From the NCBI GenBank assembly GCA_016214265.1, contig JACROU010000008.1, forward strand, positions 1 to 57,688: a stretch of 57,688 nucleotides of DNA. The letters are read 5' to 3'. The first letter of the stretch is position 1. The number at the start of each line of letters is the position of its first letter. The stretch comes from Candidatus Omnitrophota bacterium. GTDB lineage: Bacteria; Omnitrophota; Omnitrophia; Omnitrophales; JACROU01. Below, in pieces: positions 18,977 through 30,282 of this stretch. Under the pieces are notes generated by a model, which worked only from the letters and a program-made list of their open reading frames with translations, had not been told where the DNA came from and did no database searches. Made by a program: the position numbers and the translations under genes.

Positions 18977-20533
18977 ATGCTCCAAAAATATTTCCGTTTG
19001 AAGGAATTGAAATTTCATTGGCATGTAACTTGTGCTTTGATTATTTCCGTTCTTTCATTTATTGCCGGATGTCACGAGAAAAATATTGAGCCGAAATCGA
19101 ATTCAAACAGCACGCTTTATCTCGGAACGTATCAAAAACCGGAGCCATTCATTTATCCTATGATTACTGGCGGAATTACCCAGCCCTTGATGGATGTCCT
19201 CTTTAACCGGTTGTTTTTACTCACCACAGACGGACGTCTCCTTCCAGAACTCGCGGAAAAATGGGAAATTTTAGATAGCGGAAAAAAATTCGTGATTCAT
19301 CTGCGAAGAAACGTTCAGTTTCATGACGGTGTGGCACTGACAAGCCGTGACGTGATTTTTACACTCAACTGGCTTCGAAATCCTCAGCTTTCAAACCGGT
19401 CTGGAAACTATGCCGAAATCGAAAGCATGATCGCGCCGGACGACTTCACGCTTGAGATCACGCTCACAAAACCCAATGTGAATTTCTTGTGGATGGCGCT
19501 TGGCGATGCCCGAATTTATCCGGCACATTTGTTTTCATCGCCCCCTGCTTCTCGTGAAATCGAACAATTTGGGAAACATCCGGTTGGCACCGGCTCTTAC
19601 CAGTTTTCGCGATGGGAGGAAGACAACACGATTGTTTTTTCGGCTAATCCAAATTATTTCGAAGGAGCCCCACTTATTCAAACAATCGTTGTCCGTCCTT
19701 ACTCCGGCAAACTTCATCTCTTTAACGCTTTCGTGCGCGGCGATGTGGATTTTTTGGAACGTCTGGATTCCGCGGATTATGAAACGATTAGAAAAGACGC
19801 CTTATTCCAGTCTGTTAAAGAGCTTGCTTCCGGCGGTTATGCGCTGATGTTTAATTTTAAGAATCCTGTTTTTAACGATGTGCGCGTCCGCCGCGCTGTT
19901 TCAATGGGACTGCGCCGCAACGAGATGATTGAGCTTCTTGAACAGGGAAACGGAAAGCCGGTGAAGGATGCGGATGTGTATGAGCCAGAAAAAGCTTTAG
20001 CGTTGATCCGCTCCGCCGGTTACAAGTCCCTGAGTTTGAAACTGATTGTTGAAGGATCCAGCGCACAGCACATGAGGCTTGCGAAAATTATCCGCAATCA
20101 GCTTGTGGAAATAGGGATTAATGTGGAAATCCAGCCCGTCAAAGGATTGGATTTTACCGTAAGACAACTCCGTGGGGGGACTGATTGGGGTGCAATTCTT
20201 TTTATTTTTCAGACAACCGTGGATCTCTATCATTTTAAATATTATTTGCGTTTAAACAGCGTGGCAAATATTGGAGGCTATGAGAACAAAAAGCTGGACT
20301 ATATTTTTGAAAAACTTGAAACGCAAGAAGATCAAAAATCGAGAAGAGAACTTTTTGATTCATTCAATGATGTGCTTGAAAAAGATATTCCCGTCTGCTT
20401 TCTCTATTCTTTTTACAATTTTACTTTGGCCTCAAAACGCTTGAACGGTTTTAATGATGATTTTACCCAATATGTAAACGCCTCATCATTTCATGATTTT
20501 AGGAGTTTCCAAAAAACAAATGAAGGGGGGTGA
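18977..20533 (+). CDS. SBP_bac_5 periplasmic solute-binding lipoprotein
   Basis: The 518-residue protein belongs to the oligopeptide-binding family 5. The lipoprotein signal ends LSFIAGC, giving lipidation at that Cys. Family blocks include GGITQPLMDVLFNRLFLLTT, LLPELAEKWEILDSGKKFVI, VQFHDGVALTSRDVIFTLNW, NPVFNDVRVRRAVSMGLRRN and ALALIRSAGYKS. No permease or importer ATPase is encoded nearby, which is unusual for this family. Its gene ends 4 bases before the Cys-Cys precursor peptide gene. An orphan SBP_bac_5 in a peptide locus recalls MbnE of methanobactin systems, so binding of the mature peptide (free or metal-loaded) is a reasonable guess. AGGGGGA lies before the ATG. Confidence 0.9.
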   Translation: MLQKYFRLKELKFHWHVTCALIISVLSFIAGCHEKNIEPKSNSNSTLYLGTYQKPEPFIYPMITGGITQPLMDVLFNRLFLLTTDGRLLPELAEKWEILDSGKKFVIHLRRNVQFHDGVALTSRDVIFTLNWLRNPQLSNRSGNYAEIESMIAPDDFTLEITLTKPNVNFLWMALGDARIYPAHLFSSPPASREIEQFGKHPVGTGSYQFSRWEEDNTIVFSANPNYFEGAPLIQTIVVRPYSGKLHLFNAFVRGDVDFLERLDSADYETIRKDALFQSVKELASGGYALMFNFKNPVFNDVRVRRAVSMGLRRNEMIELLEQGNGKPVKDADVYEPEKALALIRSAGYKSLSLKLIVEGSSAQHMRLAKIIRNQLVEIGINVEIQPVKGLDFTVRQLRGGTDWGAILFIFQTTVDLYHFKYYLRLNSVANIGGYENKKLDYIFEKLETQEDQKSRRELFDSFNDVLEKDIPVCFLYSFYNFTLASKRLNGFNDDFTQYVNASSFHDFRSFQKTNEGG

Positions 20534-20537
20534 GTTC

Positions 20538-20648
20538 ATGCAACTTGAAATTATTGTTGAAGGCGCCCAAGCAGCAGATGCGATTGAAATGGGTTGCTGT
20601 GGTTTTGATGTTTCCTTCCGCAGACCATACGTAGCAGATGAAGAATAA
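20538..20648 (+). CDS. Candidate RiPP precursor peptide with Cys-Cys core
   Basis: This 36-codon gene sits between the binding protein and the radical SAM maturase. The acidic, Ala-rich first half (start MQLEIIVEGAQAADAI) looks like a leader. The second half, GCCGFDVSFRRPYVADEE, holds adjacent cysteines (residues 20-21), Phe, Tyr, two Arg and an acidic tail. GAAGGGGGG lies 8 bases upstream of the ATG, a strong ribosome-binding site. Two hairpins separate it from the maturase gene, a common way to make more precursor than enzyme. No homologue could be checked. The reading as a precursor rests on size, position, Cys content and the maturase with its peptide-binding N-terminal region. Confidence 0.75.
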   Translation: MQLEIIVEGAQAADAIEMGCCGFDVSFRRPYVADEE

Positions 20649-20664
20649 ATAAAATAAATCAAAG

Positions 20665-20710
20665 AGACGGTCTCTCCCGCCCGGGAGAGAGAGATTGTCT
20701 TCCATTTTTT
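20665..20710 (+). terminator. Hairpin / attenuator after the precursor gene
   Basis: TCTCTCCCG (20671-20679) pairs with CGGGAGAGA (20682-20690) around a two-base loop. The outer arms AGAC (20665-20668) / GTCT (20697-20700) extend the stem, and TCCATTTTTT follows. Partial termination here would favour the precursor over the downstream enzymes. Confidence 0.6.
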
Positions 20711-20780: not shown

Positions 20781-22157
20781 ATGAAACTGTCCAGATTTAC
20801 TTATATTGTCGACGACTATCCCGAACCGACTAAGTCTTTGGTGTTTAATGGGCGCACGGAAGCTCTTATCGTCCTAAATCACGACGTCCGCGAACTGCTC
20901 AGAAAACTTCCCACACCTACCGAGAGTTTAACTGAAATCGAACAGCAGGCTCTTCATCAGCTTGCCCAACAGGGCATTGTCAGTCCCCGCGAAATCGACG
21001 AAAACAAAATTATGGAAGATTGGTTCCATCAGTTTCGTTACAGCACCAAGCAAATGGAAGTGATGATTTTGACCACGTACAACTGCAATTTCGCCTGCCC
21101 GTATTGCTTCGAAGAGGGTGTGAAAGACAAAAAATATCTGCATGAGCCTAAGGCCGATCAGATTATCGAATGGATGCAGCAGAAGGCCCTCAAAAATAAT
21201 CCGAAAGAAATCCACATTATTTTCTACGGCGGCGAACCGTTGTTGAATATTCCCATCATCGAATATATTGGAAGCCGGATGAAATCCTGGTCTGGCGAGC
21301 ATGGTATCAAGTTTTTCTTCTCGCTCGTGACCAACGGGTCCGCCTTGACCGCGAAAGTGGCGGACCGGCTGGTTCCATGTGGCCTCAAAGTGGCGAAAAT
21401 CACGATCGATGGCCCCAAAGAAATCCACGATAAATTCCGCCCCTTCCTCAACGGTAAGGGGAGCTTCGACATCATCATGGAGAATATCAAAGCCGTTGCG
21501 GACAAACTCCAGGTGACGATCGGCGCCAATTTCAACTCGCATAGTTATCCTTACTTGTTCCAGTTGCTGGATTATCTGGAGCGGGAGGGGTTGCGTGAGA
21601 AAATTGCGCTCATTGATTTCAAACCGATTACGGACAGACCAAACCAGGTCATTGCGGATGTGACGGCCTGTCCCACGCACGAAACCGATCCTGAATATGC
21701 CGATCAGGTACTCAATATCAAACGGGAATTTATGAAGCGCGGTTTCAAAACTTCGGAGCCGATGGGAACCAATTTCTGCGAATTTAAAGCAGGCGAGATG
21801 AAAAGCATCGTCGATACCAACGGCATTATTTACAAGTGCCCTTCGATGGTGGGCCTGCCGCAATTTGGATGCGGCACTGTCGAGCAGGAATTGACACAAA
21901 ACGTGATGTTTCAAAACCTCATGAAAATGAAGATCGTGGATTTTGAAAAACAGTGCAAAACCTGCGAGTTCATTCCCATTTGTGCCGGCGGATGTAACTG
22001 GATGTCTTATCTGAGGAAAAAAGATTACACCAAAGTTTATTGTGAGAAGAAACTGTATAAAAAAACCATTCAAGATATGGTGAAATTAAAATACGAACAG
22101 GAAATGCTCCGTAAAAAAAGAAAAAATCAAAAGACAGAGCTCATCACAATCTCATGA
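20781..22157 (+). CDS. Radical SAM/SPASM peptide maturase
   Basis: The 458-residue enzyme has three parts. Residues 1-85 (KLSRFTYIVDDYPEPTKSLV onward) look like the substrate-recognition region typical of SPASM peptide maturases. The radical SAM domain binds its 4Fe-4S cluster through C-NFA-C-PY-C near residue 109, with YGGEPLLN and ITIDGPKEIHDKFR. The C-terminal SPASM part contains TNFCEFK, YKCPSM, GCGTV and CKTCEFIPICAGGCNWM, enough cysteines for two auxiliary clusters, ending near VYCEKKL. Such enzymes form thioether, C-C or epimerised residues in small peptides. The Cys-Cys precursor just upstream is the obvious substrate. The stop overlaps the first ABC gene (ATGA). I cannot tell which linkage it makes. 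Confidence 0.94.
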   Translation: MKLSRFTYIVDDYPEPTKSLVFNGRTEALIVLNHDVRELLRKLPTPTESLTEIEQQALHQLAQQGIVSPREIDENKIMEDWFHQFRYSTKQMEVMILTTYNCNFACPYCFEEGVKDKKYLHEPKADQIIEWMQQKALKNNPKEIHIIFYGGEPLLNIPIIEYIGSRMKSWSGEHGIKFFFSLVTNGSALTAKVADRLVPCGLKVAKITIDGPKEIHDKFRPFLNGKGSFDIIMENIKAVADKLQVTIGANFNSHSYPYLFQLLDYLEREGLREKIALIDFKPITDRPNQVIADVTACPTHETDPEYADQVLNIKREFMKRGFKTSEPMGTNFCEFKAGEMKSIVDTNGIIYKCPSMVGLPQFGCGTVEQELTQNVMFQNLMKMKIVDFEKQCKTCEFIPICAGGCNWMSYLRKKDYTKVYCEKKLYKKTIQDMVKLKYEQEMLRKKRKNQKTELITIS

Positions 22158-23587
22158 TTCGCAAGAATCTGTGGGCTGCCGCACCGGCCTTTCTTTTCTC
22201 GGCTTTTGCCGTTGCCAGTGCGCTTTGCCTGCCTAAAATCGTTCAAATCATCATCGACGAGATCCGCTGCGGGTTTTCGCCCCCCGCGCTTTCAAGGGGA
22301 ATAGCCCTCTTCGTCGCATCGGCTTTTCTTTCCGTTGCTTTCAAATTCGGAGCTCTTGGTGGATTTGCCTCCTTTGCCAAAAAAATGGGTGAGACCCTGC
22401 GTCTTGACTTGATCCGAAAAATTCTTGTCGATCCGGATTGTGGACAGGACAAGAAAAATTTTACGGTTCTGACGCATGATATTCGCTCGGTATCTGATTT
22501 TATCGAGAGCGGATTTCCGCGCATCTCGGGGGCCATCTGGCTTTATGGACTCGGCATTTGTTTTATTGCGGGACTGAATTGGAAATTCATGTTGCCGGCT
22601 CTGGCGGGAGTTGTGCTTAGTCTCGTGATCGCTGTCAGATGGCACGAGCGTCTGGAAAACTGGTATTACCTCGAAAGAGAAGAATATGCGAGGTATCAAC
22701 ATTCGATTACGGGCTGGTTTCACGAGTGGGAATTGATCAAGGGTCAGGCGCGTGAGGACGAGGTTTCGGAAGATTTTGAGGATAAAAGCCGGAATCATCT
22801 TCAGGTTTTGCTTAAAGCCAATATCAGTTCTGCAGGGCTGGTACCCGTGATCGCGTCGCTTTGGGGCCTAGTGGCGCTTGCGTTTATCACGATCGGTGCC
22901 CGCGAATTTCGAGCCGGGAATCTAACGGTAGGTGGCCTAGCGGCGGCTTTTCAATATCTGGTGTTCTTCTCCATGCCGACACTGGATTTGTGTTACGGCG
23001 GCGATTTGTGGCGGAAAGCCCGGGTCGCGTGGCGGCACATTGCATCGGTGTCTGATTCGCCCTTCAGGCTGTCGGGAGGAGGCGGTGGGGGCATAGCATG
23101 CTATGCCCCTACAAAAACCGGCACCATTGACGTGATTTATCCGAACGGTGTTCAGGCGGAGCAGTTAAGGAAGGAGTGCCCGGAACAGGGCGGCGTCTTT
23201 TTGCCGCGCCGAAGCCATTTTTTTTCACGGCCCCTCATCGAAAATTTCCGGCTCGCGGATCCTTGCCCTTCTTGGGGTGACATTGAAGAGTCTCTCGGCG
23301 CGGCGTGTCTCTTAAGTTCAGAGGAATCCGCGGGTTCGTGGCTCGAACGTGATCCGAATACGTTTTCGTCCGGAGAGAAAAAGCGCGCCGCTCTCGCGAG
23401 AATTTTTTTGCGCAAGGACGCGACTCTTTGGATTATGGATGACCCGACGGCCGGACTGAATCCGGAACTCGTCGAAAAACTTTTGGCGGAGCTTGCCCGC
23501 TGCCGCGAGGGTCGTGTGATGATCATTTTTTCTGAGGACAGCCGGGTGCATGAATGGGCGCAGAAAGAAAATAATTCGTATGCTTAA
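22154..23587 (+). CDS. ABC exporter half A, ATPase domain lacking Walker A
   Basis: The 477-residue protein has an exporter-type membrane domain (about residues 1-300, several hydrophobic segments) fused to a truncated ATPase domain. No P-loop GxxGxGKS/T exists. The membrane part runs through SVSDSPFRLSGGGGGG directly into a region equivalent to the part after Walker A (GTIDVIYPNGVQAEQLRKEC). The signature survives as NTFSSGEKKRAALARIFLRK (residues ~403-422). Walker B is LWIMDDPTAGL, with D429 and a second Asp (D430) where the catalytic Glu normally is. The H-loop is replaced by IIFSEDSRV. A 22-bp palindrome lies exactly at the gap. There is no C39 leader-peptidase domain. It probably forms a heterodimer with the next protein, which keeps what this one has lost. 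Confidence 0.88.
   Translation: MIRKNLWAAAPAFLFSAFAVASALCLPKIVQIIIDEIRCGFSPPALSRGIALFVASAFLSVAFKFGALGGFASFAKKMGETLRLDLIRKILVDPDCGQDKKNFTVLTHDIRSVSDFIESGFPRISGAIWLYGLGICFIAGLNWKFMLPALAGVVLSLVIAVRWHERLENWYYLEREEYARYQHSITGWFHEWELIKGQAREDEVSEDFEDKSRNHLQVLLKANISSAGLVPVIASLWGLVALAFITIGAREFRAGNLTVGGLAAAFQYLVFFSMPTLDLCYGGDLWRKARVAWRHIASVSDSPFRLSGGGGGGIACYAPTKTGTIDVIYPNGVQAEQLRKECPEQGGVFLPRRSHFFSRPLIENFRLADPCPSWGDIEESLGAACLLSSEESAGSWLERDPNTFSSGEKKRAALARIFLRKDATLWIMDDPTAGLNPELVEKLLAELARCREGRVMIIFSEDSRVHEWAQKENNSYA
23088..23109. repeat. 22-bp perfect palindrome inside a coding gene
   Basis: GGGGCATAGCA is followed by its exact reverse complement, then TACAAAAACC. The arrangement GGGGC...GCCCC-TAC resembles short dispersed GTAGGGGC-type palindromes found in many genomes. 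It is read in frame, around residues 312-319, at the place where the Walker A segment of this ABC protein is missing. Confidence 0.85.
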
Positions 23588-25034
23588 ACTTATTTTCAAA
23601 CACAAATCGGATTTCGCGGTGCTTATCGCGAGTGTGGTTTTTGCCGGAATTGTTGACATGGCACAGCCGTTATGGCTCAAGGCCATCATCGATCAATCTT
23701 TTCTCGGCGGGAAATGGAATTCACTCGCTTTTTTCAGCGTAATGTTTTTCATTTTTATTATCACGGCACAATCTTTAAGATTTCTCGAGATGCGGATTGT
23801 GGAATCGTTGAGTGTGCGGATTGGTTCTGAACTCAGAACCCGTCTGTGGACACGGCTTGCCGAAACCCAGATTTCTCAATTTGCGAAGAAAATGCCGGGC
23901 GAGTGGACATCGCTGATCTGTGAAGATGTCTCCGTCGTTCAAAATTATTTCGTCGAAGGCATCGCGTCATTGGCCAGCCACGGGATTTTTCTGGCCGGCA
24001 TTCTGATTTTCTCCGCCATTCTGGACTGGCGTATGCTTTTTATTTTTGCGTTGGCACCTATTCTTTTTCTTCTGACATCGCCGCTCAAGAAATTTTATGG
24101 AAACGCGGTGCGAGATTTTCTTCTGACTCAGGAAAAGCTGTACGGGTTTTTGGAGGAGATTTTAAGAGCCCGGTTCGAAATCCGCCAATTTCGAATGGAT
24201 CGGGCCCTCGTGAGGGAAGGTGAAACGTTGTCGGAGTCTTATCGAAAAGCGGCTTGGACTCAATCCCGCCTTGCCGCTACTTTTCCCGTCGTCACGGAAA
24301 GCCTTGGCATGCTGCTCACGGCTGTGGTGCTGGGGTTCGGAGGCTGGCTAATTCTCCGGGGAAATATGACGGTCGGCGTGCTCGTTGTTTTTCTGGAGTA
24401 TTCCCGTCGATTTTTTTCGCCGCTCCGGGAGTTGACGGAACGATGGAATTGTTTTCAGAACGCGGGGGCGGCTTACCGGCGCATTGAAGACGAGGAGAAA
24501 AAACTGGAAACTGAATCGACCCGGACGGAATCTTTCCCGGGTTTGTTTCAGCGCATTCAATTTTCAGGCGTGACCTTTGGTTATGAGCCAGAGCATTCTG
24601 TTATCGAAAATATGAACTTCCACATCGATGCGGGAGAAAAAGTTGCGATTGTCGGACCTTCGGGGGCAGGTAAAAGCACATTGTTCAAACTTTTGCTGTC
24701 ACTCTTCCATCCGTCTGAAGGGGATGTCCTGATCGATGGCATTCCTGTCAGACGGTGGAATCCGCGTTCGCTCCGGAAACATTTTCGATGGTACTCGGAG
24801 GGAAGCGCTGAGCGCGTTACTCCGGACTCGCGTGTGCTTTTGATCGATGAAATCGAAAAGCAAATGTCCGCTGGCATGCTTTCCAGTGTTCTTCAACATA
24901 TTTTATCCTATCCCGATCTTACCGTCCTGTGGATCAGTCATCAGGACAAAGTGATTCAATCTTTTCCGCGCGTAATTCGGCTTAATCAAGGCCGGGTATT
25001 GGACGATGTTTATGATCGTGTCTACCGAACTTGA
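23580..25034 (+). CDS. ABC exporter half B, ATPase domain lacking the signature motif
   Basis: The 484-residue protein has a six-helix-type exporter membrane domain (residues ~1-300) and an ATPase domain. Present are the A-loop aromatic (GVTFGYEPEH), Walker A GPSGAGKST (residues 359-367), Walker B with catalytic Glu VLLIDE (419-424) and H-loop WISHQD (H454). Only ~58 residues separate the Walker A Lys from the Walker B Asp, where exporters usually have about 120. The Q-loop, helical subdomain and LSGGQ signature are gone: RKHFRWYSEGS runs straight into AERVTPDSRVLLIDE. It overlaps half A (ATGCTTAA if ATG 23580 is used; ATG 23550 is an alternative). Its intact Walker A and Glu could pair with the signature of half A. 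Confidence 0.88.
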   Translation: MLKLIFKHKSDFAVLIASVVFAGIVDMAQPLWLKAIIDQSFLGGKWNSLAFFSVMFFIFIITAQSLRFLEMRIVESLSVRIGSELRTRLWTRLAETQISQFAKKMPGEWTSLICEDVSVVQNYFVEGIASLASHGIFLAGILIFSAILDWRMLFIFALAPILFLLTSPLKKFYGNAVRDFLLTQEKLYGFLEEILRARFEIRQFRMDRALVREGETLSESYRKAAWTQSRLAATFPVVTESLGMLLTAVVLGFGGWLILRGNMTVGVLVVFLEYSRRFFSPLRELTERWNCFQNAGAAYRRIEDEEKKLETESTRTESFPGLFQRIQFSGVTFGYEPEHSVIENMNFHIDAGEKVAIVGPSGAGKSTLFKLLLSLFHPSEGDVLIDGIPVRRWNPRSLRKHFRWYSEGSAERVTPDSRVLLIDEIEKQMSAGMLSSVLQHILSYPDLTVLWISHQDKVIQSFPRVIRLNQGRVLDDVYDRVYRT

Positions 25035-26853
25035 AGAAATAAAGCAAAACAGAACGTTTCGATTTTCTCCCTGGAATTGGTTCACATCGCATATTTCCGC
25101 GAAACTGGCGCTTGCCATGATTCTGGTGGTGGTGATTCCGCTTTCAGGCCTCGGGATTGTTCTTACGCTGGCGGCCGAGAAAGCGGTGAAGGCGTCCGTT
25201 CAGCGCGATCATCAGGAAATCGCGAAGCGCACGGCTCACGAGGTCGGCCTATTCGTCGAGAGGCCGCTGGAACTCCTCGAATCCACCGGTGCCATGATCG
25301 CGATTAATCAAACCGATCCGTGGAAGCAAGAGACTGTGTTGGTGGAACTTTCCGTCATGTTTCCCATTTTTGAGGAAGTTGTGTCTGTCGACGCTTCAGG
25401 AAAAGTTCTGGCTACTTCTAATCCGGGAAAAGAGCCTGTTTTCAACAAGAGAGCCGAAGCTCTGAAACGGGTGCTCCAAAAGGATACGTACACCTCCGAA
25501 GTTTATCTTTCGAACGATTATCTTCCATATCTTGATGTGGGCATTCCGTATTTTCAGCAGGGGAAAGTCAGCGGGGCTCTGCTTGCGCGCATCAATTTGC
25601 GGGGCATGTGGGATATTATCGATGGAATCCGGATTGGCGAAACAGGCCGCGCGTTTCTGGTGTCCAAAAATGGGATATTGATCGCTCATCCGGACAAGAA
25701 AAAAGTTCTGCTGAATTTGGATATTACCCAGAATGCGGCTGTGTCTCAAGTGTTGGCAAGAAAAACGGGCACCCTGGAGGAGGGCAAAGACAAAGAAGGC
25801 CAGTGGCTGGTTTCTTACGCGCCCATTTCCGGCGAATTTGAGTGGGGCATTGTGATCGAGCAGAAAACGGACGAGGCTTATGCGCTGCTCAAGGTCATGC
25901 TTTGGAGCACGGCGAGTGCTGGGTTTCTCGCAATTTTAGTGGCTGTCATCGTGAGTATTTTAGCCTCGCGACGGGTGGTGCAGCCAGTGCATGTTCTGGA
26001 ATTTTGGAGCCGGAGAATTTCTCTCGGCGATTTTGACTATCTGGCTATGCATCGCACCCGTGACGAGTTGGGACGGCTATTCATTGCTTTCAAGCGCATG
26101 AGAGACCGTTTGCGCGAAGCCCGCGAGCAGGAATATCTGGCGATGCTAGGAACGGCCTCTACGGCGCTGGCGCACAAAATCAAAAATTCCATCGTCAGTT
26201 TGAAAACTCTGGCCGATCTTTTTCCGTCCCGTCGTGCTGACTTGGAATTTTTGAATCAGTTCGAAGCGGAATTTCCAAATTCGGTGGGGCACCTGGAGAA
26301 AATTCTTAAACAGTTATCAAAAGTTGCCAGTGAATATGCGCTTACGCCCGCCCCGGTGGATCTTGCCGAGCTATTTGGAAAATTAGAGAAAAAATTCAGG
26401 GAAGTTTCAGAAAAAAAGAAAGTGAAGTTTCGGATTTTTTCCGAGGATGGTATGTCTTCGATCGATGGGGATGGTGAGAGGCTTGCGGATGTATTTGAGA
26501 ATTTGATTGTGAATGCCCTAGAAGCGATGCCGGATGGAGGGGAGCTGACATTTCATCTAAGAAAAAAGCATGGAAGAATTTTTCATCCCAAATTGATTAA
26601 TGAGACGGCGATCGATTATGTCGAGATTAAGGTGAAGGATTCTGGCGAAGGCATTCCGAAAGAAAAACTTGAGGAAGTGTTTCGTCCCTTTGTGACAACG
26701 AAGCGCGGTGGGATGGGCATCGGTCTTACTATTGTTAAAAAAATCATTCATCAACACGGAGGCACTATTCAGATAGAATCAGAGCCAGGACAAGGAACCA
26801 CATTTATCATTCTTCTTCCTCTTACAGCCTCTAAATACGGAATTTTTAAATAA
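25006..26853 (+). CDS. Membrane sensor histidine kinase (dCache-HAMP-HisKA-HATPase)
   Basis: This 615-residue kinase has a first membrane segment at about residues 32-55 and an extracytoplasmic sensor of ~230 residues with dCache-like features (GETGRAFLVSKNGILIAHPD). A second membrane segment (LWSTASAGFLAILVAVIVSI), a HAMP linker and the kinase core follow. The phospho-acceptor His is in STALAHKIKNSIVS. The ATP-binding boxes are FENLIVNALEAMPDGGEL, VKDSGEGIPKEKLEEVF and GGMGIGLTIVKKII. It overlaps ABC half B by about 29 bases, so it is translated with the peptide exporter. The NtrC-type regulator encoded convergently at 28888-30282 is its likely partner. Sensing of the peptide or its ligand is inference. 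Confidence 0.92.
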   Translation: MFMIVSTELEEIKQNRTFRFSPWNWFTSHISAKLALAMILVVVIPLSGLGIVLTLAAEKAVKASVQRDHQEIAKRTAHEVGLFVERPLELLESTGAMIAINQTDPWKQETVLVELSVMFPIFEEVVSVDASGKVLATSNPGKEPVFNKRAEALKRVLQKDTYTSEVYLSNDYLPYLDVGIPYFQQGKVSGALLARINLRGMWDIIDGIRIGETGRAFLVSKNGILIAHPDKKKVLLNLDITQNAAVSQVLARKTGTLEEGKDKEGQWLVSYAPISGEFEWGIVIEQKTDEAYALLKVMLWSTASAGFLAILVAVIVSILASRRVVQPVHVLEFWSRRISLGDFDYLAMHRTRDELGRLFIAFKRMRDRLREAREQEYLAMLGTASTALAHKIKNSIVSLKTLADLFPSRRADLEFLNQFEAEFPNSVGHLEKILKQLSKVASEYALTPAPVDLAELFGKLEKKFREVSEKKKVKFRIFSEDGMSSIDGDGERLADVFENLIVNALEAMPDGGELTFHLRKKHGRIFHPKLINETAIDYVEIKVKDSGEGIPKEKLEEVFRPFVTTKRGGMGIGLTIVKKIIHQHGGTIQIESEPGQGTTFIILLPLTASKYGIFK

Positions 26854-28869
26854 TTAAAATTCGTAGCGCAGACCAAATTCATATTGCCGGCCCGGATTGG
26901 GATTGAAGGTTTTGTCGAAAGAAAGTCCCGAGTTGAACATGTTTGTGATTTGAAAATACATCGAAAGATTGCCATAATAAATTTTGGGACAGCGCCAGAA
27001 AATTTTGGAATTAAACACGAATTGTCTGTCTTCCGGAATCGCGGTGGCGGTATCGCGGTTTGTCTCAATCCATTTCCCGCGCAGGGAGTAGTGAATGTCC
27101 ATCGGTAAATTCAGCGTGGCGCCAAGGTCCTGCGAAAGCACTGGCCTTTCTCTGACAACTTTCGAGTGAACCGTCCGGTCCGTCACTTTGACAAAATTAA
27201 TCGCGTAGAGAAAATCCAGAAATCCCCACGGTTTAAAGTTGAGCTCTCCATCCACGCCGTCGCGGCGTTCCCGTCCAATATTGGTAAACGTTCTGTTGCC
27301 TCCGGTCGTGTTCCGCACGACAATGCCGTCAGTGACAAAATTCTGAAAATAAGTGACCTCCGTCGATATCCACGAAAAGGGATTGGTTGCCAGGGCAAAA
27401 CTATAAGCCGTGCTGCGTTCGGCACGAATCCCCGGATTTGGCACCAATCTAAAAAGAGGATTGGTGACGAAGCGGTCAGCAAACGGCGGGGCGTTGAAGG
27501 CACGTTGAAAATTTACTTTAACGTTGGATTTGACGAATGGCAGGTGAATGACCGTTCCTGCGCTGGGGCTGTACTGATGACCAAACGCGTTGTTGTTGTC
27601 GTAGCGGCTTCCGAGAAGAATGTCCAGATTATGAAGTTCCAGCCGGTAATTTCCATAATAAGCCTCACTGTAGGCCGCGTCCCGTACATTAAATTGAGAA
27701 TTTCCCGGAGTGATTCTTCGGGCGATGATGATTTCCTTTTGAACGTCAATGCCGAGTGTCGCCGATTGACGCTCGGAAATTTTAAGATCTGTTTTGAGCG
27801 ATCCTTGGGGCAGATTGCTTACGCCGTTTGAATTGTCCACCAGATTGCCCATGGTCGCGGGCGTTAAATCATTAGAATCTAGATTAAAATGCCGCGAGTG
27901 AAATTTTGCGGCAGCTTCGATTGTTAACCAATCGGTGGGGATGAGCTCAAAACCAAAGCGTCCCAGCTGTGTGTTGACTTTACGTTTCTGCGAAGTCAGA
28001 TTGACGAGGTCGTTAAATTCGCTTTCCCGCTGGCCGAAATAGCCGTAGCTTCCTTTTAGTTTCAATCCTTCCGAAATCTGAATTTCTTCCTTTGTGTAAA
28101 TTCTTTTCTCGAGAATATCGCTGTTGGGCCGGAAATCGCCGGAGTCAATCAGGTCACCACCGAGAAAATATGCCACGGGGCCCACTTTTTGAGCGACATC
28201 AAAATAGCGGCGCTGGGTGCGGAATGTGCCCCATCCGTAAGTGGCTTCTCCGTGAGGCACGATACTTGTGCCGACTGGTTTGGTGAAAATGTTAATGACG
28301 CCGGATAATGATGAGCCCCAGGTGCTAGATGAGGGGCCTTCCACGACTTCTACTTTCCCCACGGATTCGATGGGAAACTGAGACAGGTCGGTCGTACCTT
28401 CAGATGTGGTGTTGAATGTGATGTCGTCAAAAATCACGCGCACTTGTCGCGCCAATCCGCCGCCGATCGTCGCTTGAGCGGGCTGGCCGATATTTCCGGT
28501 TTGCTCCACCGTGACTCCGGGAACGAAGGCGATGGCCTCGTCGAGATCGCGCGCCGGCATTTTCAGCATGTCGTCGTAGGTGAGCATTTCAACATGATCG
28601 GGTATATGCTCGGCATTTTCCGGACGACGTTGAGGCGTGTAAACCATGTCATGAGCGTAGATGACAGGCCACCGCATGTATTCGGGAAAATTTTCCTGCT
28701 GGGCGATAATAGATTCGTCTGCCTGATGATCTTGTGATTTGTTTTTGTCGGCGGTTTTTTGATCAGGAGGCGGAGGCCCGAAGGGTTTTGAGTTCGTGTC
28801 CGCAAATCCTTCACGAACGAGAACAAGAAATAAGGTTGCAAGAATGAAGAGGAGTTTTTTGATGCTCAT
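26854..28869 (-). CDS. TonB-dependent outer-membrane receptor
   Basis: The 671-residue receptor has a Sec signal (KLLFILATLFLVLVREGFA|D), then a Pro/Lys-rich stretch. The plug domain reads MPARDLDEAIAFVPGVTVEQ, and VEVVEGPSSSTWGSSLSGVI matches the plug consensus. About 20 beta strands follow, ending in GLRYEF with the terminal Phe needed for barrel insertion. Such receptors import metal chelates, peptides or vitamins using TonB energy. It is downstream of the NtrC-type regulator on the same strand (18-base gap). It converges on the kinase gene with no spacer: the two stop codons are adjacent. Uptake of the locus's own peptide, perhaps metal-bound, is the best guess. A B12 or siderophore ligand remains possible. 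Confidence 0.93.
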   Translation of the reverse strand: MSIKKLLFILATLFLVLVREGFADTNSKPFGPPPPDQKTADKNKSQDHQADESIIAQQENFPEYMRWPVIYAHDMVYTPQRRPENAEHIPDHVEMLTYDDMLKMPARDLDEAIAFVPGVTVEQTGNIGQPAQATIGGGLARQVRVIFDDITFNTTSEGTTDLSQFPIESVGKVEVVEGPSSSTWGSSLSGVINIFTKPVGTSIVPHGEATYGWGTFRTQRRYFDVAQKVGPVAYFLGGDLIDSGDFRPNSDILEKRIYTKEEIQISEGLKLKGSYGYFGQRESEFNDLVNLTSQKRKVNTQLGRFGFELIPTDWLTIEAAAKFHSRHFNLDSNDLTPATMGNLVDNSNGVSNLPQGSLKTDLKISERQSATLGIDVQKEIIIARRITPGNSQFNVRDAAYSEAYYGNYRLELHNLDILLGSRYDNNNAFGHQYSPSAGTVIHLPFVKSNVKVNFQRAFNAPPFADRFVTNPLFRLVPNPGIRAERSTAYSFALATNPFSWISTEVTYFQNFVTDGIVVRNTTGGNRTFTNIGRERRDGVDGELNFKPWGFLDFLYAINFVKVTDRTVHSKVVRERPVLSQDLGATLNLPMDIHYSLRGKWIETNRDTATAIPEDRQFVFNSKIFWRCPKIYYGNLSMYFQITNMFNSGLSFDKTFNPNPGRQYEFGLRYEF

Positions 28870-28887: not shown

Positions 28888-30282
28888 TTATTGGCCTTCC
28901 GACTTTAATTCCTGGACTTTGATTCCAAGGCTTTGGAGTTTTACCAATAACGTGTTTCTGTGAATGCCCAGAATTTCGGCGACTTTAGTTTGATGCCATT
29001 TGTTGCGTTCAAGTAAATTGAGAATCAGATTTTTTTCGAATTTTTCCATTTCGGATTTTAGCGAAAAATTCACCGTGCTACTTTGAATCTCGGCGTGGAA
29101 AAGAGCCAGATCCATAGGCAAATCCCGTTTTCGTATCACCGGTCCGTCCGCTAGCACCACCGTCCGTTCAATTACATTCTTGATTTCCCGGACATTGCCT
29201 GGCCAGGCATAGTTTTTCAGAACTTCCAGGGCGTCGTTGTCAAATCCGCTGATATTCCTTGAAAATTGTGCGGCAAATTGGCGTAGAAAATGTTGGGCCA
29301 GGACGGGAATATCGTCGGTTCTTTCCCGAAGCGGTGGCAGATGAATGTGAATGACATTCAGCCGGTAATAAAGATCTTCCCGGAATTTGTTTTTGCGGAT
29401 CAAGTCTTGAAAATCAGAATTCGTCGCGGCAATTACGCGGATATTAATTTGGAAGGTTTTCGTGCTTCCAACGCGTTCAAATTCTTTCTCCTGGAGGACG
29501 CGAAGCAATTTTACTTGAAGGCGCTCTTCCATGCACGAAATTTCGTCCAGGAAAATAATGCCGTTGTTGGCAATTTCGAATTTTCCAATTCTGCGCTCAT
29601 GCGCGCCTGTGAAAGAGCCTTTCTCATGGCCAAATAATTCCGATTCCATCAAATTGTCTGGAATAGCCCCGCAATTGATAGCCACAAAGGGTTTGTCTTT
29701 ATAAGGGCCAATGGAACGGATGGCCCGCGCTACCAGTTCTTTTCCGGTACCAGTTTCTCCAGTAATTAAAACCGTACTTTCCACTGCCGCGGCTTTTCGG
29801 ATCTGATCAAAAATAATCCGCATTTTGGGATCATGCCCAACGATATCTTCAAATTGAGTGTTTCTGTTTTGTTCCTCTTCCAAGTAATCGAGTTGTGTCT
29901 GGAGCTGTTTTTTTTCAAGAGCACGTTTGACGAGAAGCTGTATTTCTTCCGCTTCGTAAGGTTTGGCAAGGTAGTCGTAAGCGCCCATCTTGAGTGCTTT
30001 GACCGCCGTTTTGGCTTGGTCGGTTGCGCTCAGCATAATCACGTCAATTTTTTCACTAAGACCCTGGATTTTTTCGAGCAGCCAGAAGCCGTCGTGATCG
30101 TCGGAGGGAAAGGTAAGATCCAGAAAGACCAGGTCAACGGGATTAGTCTCCAGGATATGCAACGCCTGTTTCGGGTCGTTGGCTTTCAAGATCTGATAGT
30201 CACGGCCCAAAATAATGTCCATGGACTTCTGAACGGACTCTTCATCATCGACGACAAGGATAGATTTTAGCTGGGAACCCAT
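28888..30282 (-). CDS. NtrC-family sigma54-dependent response regulator
   Basis: The 464-residue regulator has a receiver domain (residues 1-125; ILVVDDEES, phospho-Asp in LVFLDLTFPSDD, Lys in YDYLAKPY). The AAA+ domain carries Walker A GETGTGKE, the sigma54-contact loop written GSFTGA instead of GAFTGA, Walker B GIIFLDEIS and the arginine-finger region FREDLYYRLNVIHIHLPPLR. The C-terminal Fis-type HTH is KWHQTKVAEILGIHRNTLLV. It should activate sigma54 promoters when phosphorylated, most likely by the kinase at 25006. I found no convincing -24/-12 site upstream of the peptide operon or of this gene by eye. The Ala-to-Ser change in GAFTGA is tolerated in some activators. Confidence 0.94.
   Translation of the reverse strand: MGSQLKSILVVDDEESVQKSMDIILGRDYQILKANDPKQALHILETNPVDLVFLDLTFPSDDHDGFWLLEKIQGLSEKIDVIMLSATDQAKTAVKALKMGAYDYLAKPYEAEEIQLLVKRALEKKQLQTQLDYLEEEQNRNTQFEDIVGHDPKMRIIFDQIRKAAAVESTVLITGETGTGKELVARAIRSIGPYKDKPFVAINCGAIPDNLMESELFGHEKGSFTGAHERRIGKFEIANNGIIFLDEISCMEERLQVKLLRVLQEKEFERVGSTKTFQINIRVIAATNSDFQDLIRKNKFREDLYYRLNVIHIHLPPLRERTDDIPVLAQHFLRQFAAQFSRNISGFDNDALEVLKNYAWPGNVREIKNVIERTVVLADGPVIRKRDLPMDLALFHAEIQSSTVNFSLKSEMEKFEKNLILNLLERNKWHQTKVAEILGIHRNTLLVKLQSLGIKVQELKSEGQ

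Follow-up and report, generated by a model that had tools for sequence, protein, structure and literature searches.

Adjacent half ABC exporters with apparently complementary ATPase-domain losses in a CC-peptide gene cluster of an Omnitrophota genome

It is an open question why an ATP site without hydrolytic activity persists in so many ABC exporters. Altered as it is, the degenerate site of TM287/288, TmrAB, TAP, and others is still there, and the view held is that ATP bound there serves as a glue that keeps the domains together (PMC7756269). A natural pair of half exporters lacking this second site would, if real, put the domain-glue view to a direct test. A candidate for such a pair lies in a stretch of 57,688 nucleotides from Candidatus Omnitrophota bacterium (contig JACROU010000008.1; hereafter the window), where a preliminary description had reported two half exporters, here called A and B, with complementary deletions that leave exactly one ATP site. 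Re-reading the sequence upheld its coordinates and motif calls for both genes. All genes and protein motifs given below with coordinates of the window lie on the forward strand unless stated otherwise.

Half-exporter A (22154..23587) is 477 residues long and consists of a transmembrane domain (TMD) with six hydrophobic segments (PF00664, ABC_membrane, 49 bits against a cut-off of 28) and a reduced nucleotide-binding domain (NBD) that contains the helical subdomain and the signature. Pfam ABC_tran matched it over profile positions 100–137 only and, at 22.6 bits, did not reach the cut-off of 25. The losses named in the preliminary description are all there: in place of Walker A we found the remnant YPNGVQAEQL (23138..23167), which lacks the Lys; Walker B (LWIMDD, 23426..23443) carries Asp instead of the catalytic Glu; and in the H-loop (FSEDS, 23528..23542) His is replaced by Glu, while the signature is intact (FSSGEKKR, 23363..23386). 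The Q-loop is degenerate as well (FLPRRSHFF, 23198..23224, Gln to Arg) and the A-loop is absent; the D-loop is retained (AGLNPE). Measured against the full NBD motif set, A thus lacks the Walker A Lys, the Q-loop Gln, the catalytic Glu, and the H-loop His. In an alignment with the exporters of related clusters (see below), several blocks are missing between the TMD and the Q-loop, and the protein terminates shortly past the H-loop strand, without the usual C-terminal tail. AlphaFold2 predicted the TMD with confidence (pLDDT about 88 over most of it) and gave a plausible helical subdomain; the model has no confident P-loop part, with residues 317–345 below a pLDDT of 50. At the first deletion of A, in frame in the linker between TMD and NBD, lies a 28-nt palindrome (23085..23112). 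It is an interspersed repeat centred on GGGGCWTAGCATGCTAWRCCC, with three copies in the genome, the other two being near-copies at G000 C72:8510-8529 and C27:12621-12640. The idea that it is a phage-borne repeat was dropped, as viral contigs held no exact match.

Half-exporter B complements this picture. It most likely starts at the ATG at 23580 and ends at 25034 (484 residues); the ATG at 23550 would give 494 residues. Like A it has six hydrophobic transmembrane segments (PF00664, 110 bits, cut-off 28), here followed by a RecA-like core without the helical subdomain, and ABC_tran matched over profile positions 2–75 only (62.9 bits). The A-loop (FGYEP), Walker A (GPSGAGKST, 24654..24680), Walker B with its Glu (VLLIDE, 24834..24851), and the H-loop His (WISHQ, 24930..24944) are all kept, as the preliminary description had stated. 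It was also right about what B has lost from the full motif set, namely the Q-loop, the helical subdomain, and a proper signature; a degenerate remnant, YSEGSAERV, persists at the deletion junction directly before Walker B (24792..24818). The D-loop and the usual C-terminal tail are gone, too. The distance from the Walker A Lys to the Walker B Asp, earlier put at about 58 residues, is indeed 58, versus 116–129 (usually 122) in 26 other type IV exporters of the phylum. Aligned with the exporters of related clusters, B is missing 58 core columns ahead of the YSEG remnant and six behind it. Nor can another frame hide the missing part, as too little DNA lies between the codons of Walker A and Walker B to encode it. 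In the AlphaFold2 model of B (mean pLDDT 81), the strands of the RecA-like core are intact, with core values mostly of 82–90, and a short uncertain loop (residues 408–413, pLDDT below 50) replaces the helical subdomain. Confident folds were predicted for both TMDs and for the core of B.

We wondered how these losses are distributed over the two ATP sites that an A/B dimer would form. In the published layout, the Q-loop, Walker A, Walker B, switch, and A-loop of a site come from one chain, and the signature, D-loop, and X-loop from its partner (PMC12038006). Following this layout, we assigned fourteen elements ourselves: site 1 combines the ATP side of A with the signature and D-loop of B, and site 2 the ATP side of B with the signature and D-loop of A. 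Site 1 has lost seven of its seven elements (A-loop, Walker A, Q-loop, Walker B, and H-loop of A; signature and D-loop of B). Site 2 has kept six of seven, the deleted one being the Q-loop Gln of B. Eight losses placed at random among the 14 elements would strike the whole of site 1 with a probability of 0.002, and the four losses by substitution alone, all of them in site 1, give 0.005; both values are rough, because the motif calls are our own and some losses share one deletion. This distribution supports losses that are asymmetric and concentrated on one of the two sites. Judged from their ABC_tran matches and motifs, A and B carry complementary parts of one ATPase domain, and what is left would make up no more than one composite ATP site. 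Because A lacks the Walker A Lys, and B the helical subdomain and a proper signature, site 1 should be unable to form. The claim that one site is complete and the other removed therefore stands for the removed site; "complete" is too strong for the other, since the Q-loop and helical subdomain of B are missing from it. The absent helical subdomain is also where the coupling helix of the partner would dock.

Which known exporters does this pair resemble? The best solved relative by sequence was TM287, the chain with the Walker B Asp, for A, and TM288, the catalytic chain, for B. Foldseek searches with the AlphaFold2 models placed 3qf4_A (TM287), TmrB, and MsRv1273c first for A, and TmrA and TM288 first for B. 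In a tree of TMDs, B grouped weakly with TM288, TM287, and TmrA, A had no secure place, and both branches were very long (5.1 changes per site for A and 3.4 for B, versus 0.1–1.2 in most exporters of related clusters). The genes have the arrangement of a degenerate-site heterodimer: they are adjacent, A shows the Glu to Asp change in Walker B together with a changed H-loop, and B is a catalytic chain with an altered signature. Since A matches TM287, and B matches TM288 or TmrA, both by sequence and by predicted fold, the pair looks like a heterodimer of the TM287/288–TmrAB kind, by descent or by convergence, that has eroded further. TM287/288 of Thermotoga maritima, TmrAB, and MsRv1273c/72c are likewise heterodimeric type IV exporters encoded by adjacent genes, with the same site assignment (PMC12038006), A corresponding to their Walker B Asp chain and B to their catalytic chain with its degenerate signature. 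Their degenerate site, however, is present and binds ATP, whereas such a site would no longer form from A, which has no P-loop Lys, and B, which has neither a proper signature nor a helical subdomain and lacks the Q-loop in addition. As far as sequence can tell, the pair thus goes beyond TM287/288, as had been proposed. In human ABCG5/G8, degeneracy also reaches Walker A (Lys to Arg) and the signature (PMC7756269), but by substitutions only, in complete domains and in another class of ABC exporter. We found no paper on complementary NBD truncation, or on pairs in which both chains have lost site 1 by deletion, in the open-access literature, a search that amounts to weak evidence; the word "deletion" was not found in the review PMC7756269. 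An origin by recent duplication of the cluster's own exporter was rejected, as the TMDs of A and B are only ~21% identical and did not group together in the tree.

Could the missing parts have been lost from the data rather than from the genes? Assembly or binning might have produced the deletions from genes with full ATPase domains: the assembly is fragmented (102 contigs), an internal deletion breaks the frame of the one other type IV exporter in it, and the palindrome coincides with the first deletion of A. Collapse, however, could not produce the substitutions seen at degenerate positions (E to D, H to E, Q to R, and the D-loops). The deletions are several, separate, and all in frame; their junctions lack long direct repeats; and ten other open reading frames of the window show no domain split between frames, the other cluster genes being of normal length. 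We consider such an artefact very unlikely. The other exporter of the assembly, an MsbA-like gene (L097:1393-2930, on G000 C18), has lost TM5–6 out of frame, and its break may be either an assembly error or real.

The open frames instead favour a translated product, as do codon usage and the in-frame deletions. The 961 codons of A and B contain no stop or frameshift, where the chance of 477 random codons without a stop is about 4e-11, and the codon usage of both genes resembles that of their neighbours, with TMD and NBD parts alike. Four clear deletions (two in A, one in B, and one in a solute-binding protein gene of the cluster) are in frame, which would have a probability of about 0.01 if unselected (~1/3 each), a figure weakened by the fact that the pair was picked for its open frames.

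The genes around the pair suggest what it may carry. The first gene of the cluster encodes an SBP_5 solute-binding lipoprotein (18977..20533; PF00496, 221 bits; lipobox FIAGC). Around its residue 326, a conserved loop of 14 residues (GPxxPxS), present in aligned relatives, is missing in frame. Next come a putative RiPP precursor of 36 residues, MQLEIIVEGAQAADAIEMGCCGFDVSFRRPYVADEE (20538..20648), recognized from its translation and from a short CC-containing open reading frame at the matching place in relatives, and a radical SAM/SPASM peptide maturase (20781..22157) directly ahead of A. B is followed by a dCache-HAMP sensor histidine kinase (25006..26853; Pfam domains) and, on the reverse strand, by a TonB-dependent receptor (26854..28869; plug domain PF07715, 58 bits) and an NtrC-type sigma-54 response regulator (28888..30282; PF00158, PF00072), all three of which also occur in relatives. 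The maturase came closest to the geopeptide maturase family TIGR04280, but its 334 bits fall short of the curated cut-off of 400; all maturases found scored below that value, and the phylum samples contained no member above it. The system thus resembles geopeptide systems in the best family match of its maturase and in the short precursor gene upstream, and differs in the low maturase scores and in precursors that match no NCBIfam or Pfam model. The CC peptides tested matched no known precursor family. The term "geopeptide" itself was not found in the open-access literature searched.

Searching the phylum sample with TIGR04280 recovered the maturase from 18 further genomes, to which two more were added later. 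Taking SBP_5 protein, CC peptide, radical SAM/SPASM maturase, dCache kinase, and TonB receptor together as the mark of the cluster, it is present in the window and, counting this one, in 21 genomes; matching neighbours flank the maturase in most relatives. A CC-containing short open reading frame lies upstream of the maturase in 17 of the 18 relatives examined, L040 being the exception. The core is CC[WFY]PPGT-like in most relatives, CCGFDVSF in the window, and CCVSDIWF in L035, a relative from the same order. This CC-peptide RiPP cluster, apparently undescribed, is of interest in its own right. Its likely role is that the CC peptide is modified, exported, and then sensed or re-imported.

If the peptide is exported, what stands in the place of A and B elsewhere? 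Among the 20 relatives with the cluster, the slot between the radical SAM and kinase genes could be read in 17 (L038, L050, and L093 are cut off by contig ends). One full-length exporter of type IV fold occupies it in 13 of these (L036, L037, L039–L045, L047, L049, L052, and L094). Unlike A and B, each of these exporters is a single gene, mostly of 570–600 residues, with near-canonical motifs, presumably acting as a homodimer; they are ~17–25% identical to A and B. The slot is empty in the other four (L035, L046, L048, and L051). In L035, the only relative of the same order with the cluster and the only other carrier among all genomes of the order (47) and class (49), the kinase follows the maturase after 92 nt with no ABC gene between them. 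L046, L048, and L051 likewise have no ABC gene in the slot, and the route of peptide export is open in these genomes. None of the 17 has two truncated halves, and no second truncated pair turned up in any of the 47 genomes of the order or the 49 of the class, nor in three mutually overlapping samples, of up to 384 genomes, from other parts of the phylum. Compared with a collection of genome contigs, B gave only weak matches (31–41% identity over 54–64 residues around Walker A). So far, then, a single genome is known to carry the truncated pair.

The exporter can evidently be lost, being absent from four cluster relatives that include the only one of the same order. This makes decay a serious rival reading: the cluster in this order may no longer need a dedicated exporter, and random deletions, in frame so far by chance, may be stripping a former degenerate-site heterodimer of its ATPase domains. 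The empty slots fit such a course, as do the very long branches of A and B, the repeat inside A, the conserved parts deleted from both and from the SBP_5 gene (14 residues), and the damage to the retained site, which has no Q-loop. Decay sits less easily with two frames free of stops and frameshifts, with normal codon usage, and with losses that spared the signature of A and the catalytic motifs of B. That every clear internal deletion is in frame also speaks against it, though about a third would be expected to be so without selection. Overall we regard decay as a possibility to be taken seriously, held by us with something like a minority share of belief.

The reading that we prefer, at a little short of an even chance, is that A and B are translated and assemble into one heterodimeric type IV exporter, which works on the single remaining ATP site. 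Such a pair would have descended from, or converged with, exporters of the TM287/288–TmrAB kind with one degenerate site. Site 1, inactive already, would then have been physically removed in this lineage: from its core A would have lost the P-loop portion, and B the helical subdomain together with the signature. What remained would be at most one composite site, in which the Walker A, Walker B Glu, and H-loop His of B face the signature and D-loop of A. ATP would close this site and its hydrolysis, even without the Q-loop Gln of B, would drive the two domains of six transmembrane segments each, the probable cargo being the radical-SAM-modified CC peptide encoded directly upstream. In favour of this reading count the concentration of losses on site 1, the resemblance of A to degenerate and of B to catalytic chains, the well-folded core predicted for B, the open frames with neighbour-like codon usage, the in-frame deletions, the overlaps between the genes, and the full-length exporter that fills the slot in 13 relatives. 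Against a working pump stand the retained site without the Q-loop and helical subdomain of B, the core of A without a confident P-loop strand, the occurrence in a single genome, the very long TMD branches, and the absence of the exporter from four cluster relatives. The strongest form of the claim, a working exporter whose second site is deleted from both chains and whose catalytic chain does without Q-loop and helical subdomain, is accordingly one that we put forward only tentatively. If true, the pair would represent a minimal natural ABC motor that transports without need for a second nucleotide site or for coupling through the Q-loop in cis; lacking Q-loop and helical subdomain, it would also put to the test what share of an ATPase suffices to move the membrane part.

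Ordinary coupling between ATP and the TMDs would break without these two parts, and the pair might then be no pump at all but a membrane regulator or an ATP-gated channel. B would bind ATP and the remnant domain of A would serve for docking, the pair passing, for example, a peptide or envelope signal to the dCache kinase. A D-loop mutant of TAP that turned into a nucleotide-gated facilitator provides a precedent (reviewed in PMC7756269). Sensing genes abound in the cluster, and the genes of B and the kinase share 29 nt. Relatives, however, have the same kinase beside an ordinary exporter or beside none, so the kinase is independent of the A/B pair, and the catalytic Glu and His kept by B would be needless for a mere ATP gate. 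We think this role improbable.

Besides the overlap of B with the kinase gene, the maturase gene overlaps A by 4 nt and A overlaps B by 8 nt (counted from the ATG at 23580), all of which is consistent with translational coupling. Between the precursor and maturase genes, at 20660-20700, lies a terminator-like stem-loop (listed in the scan of the minus strand only), possibly an attenuator that favours expression of the precursor over that of the maturase.
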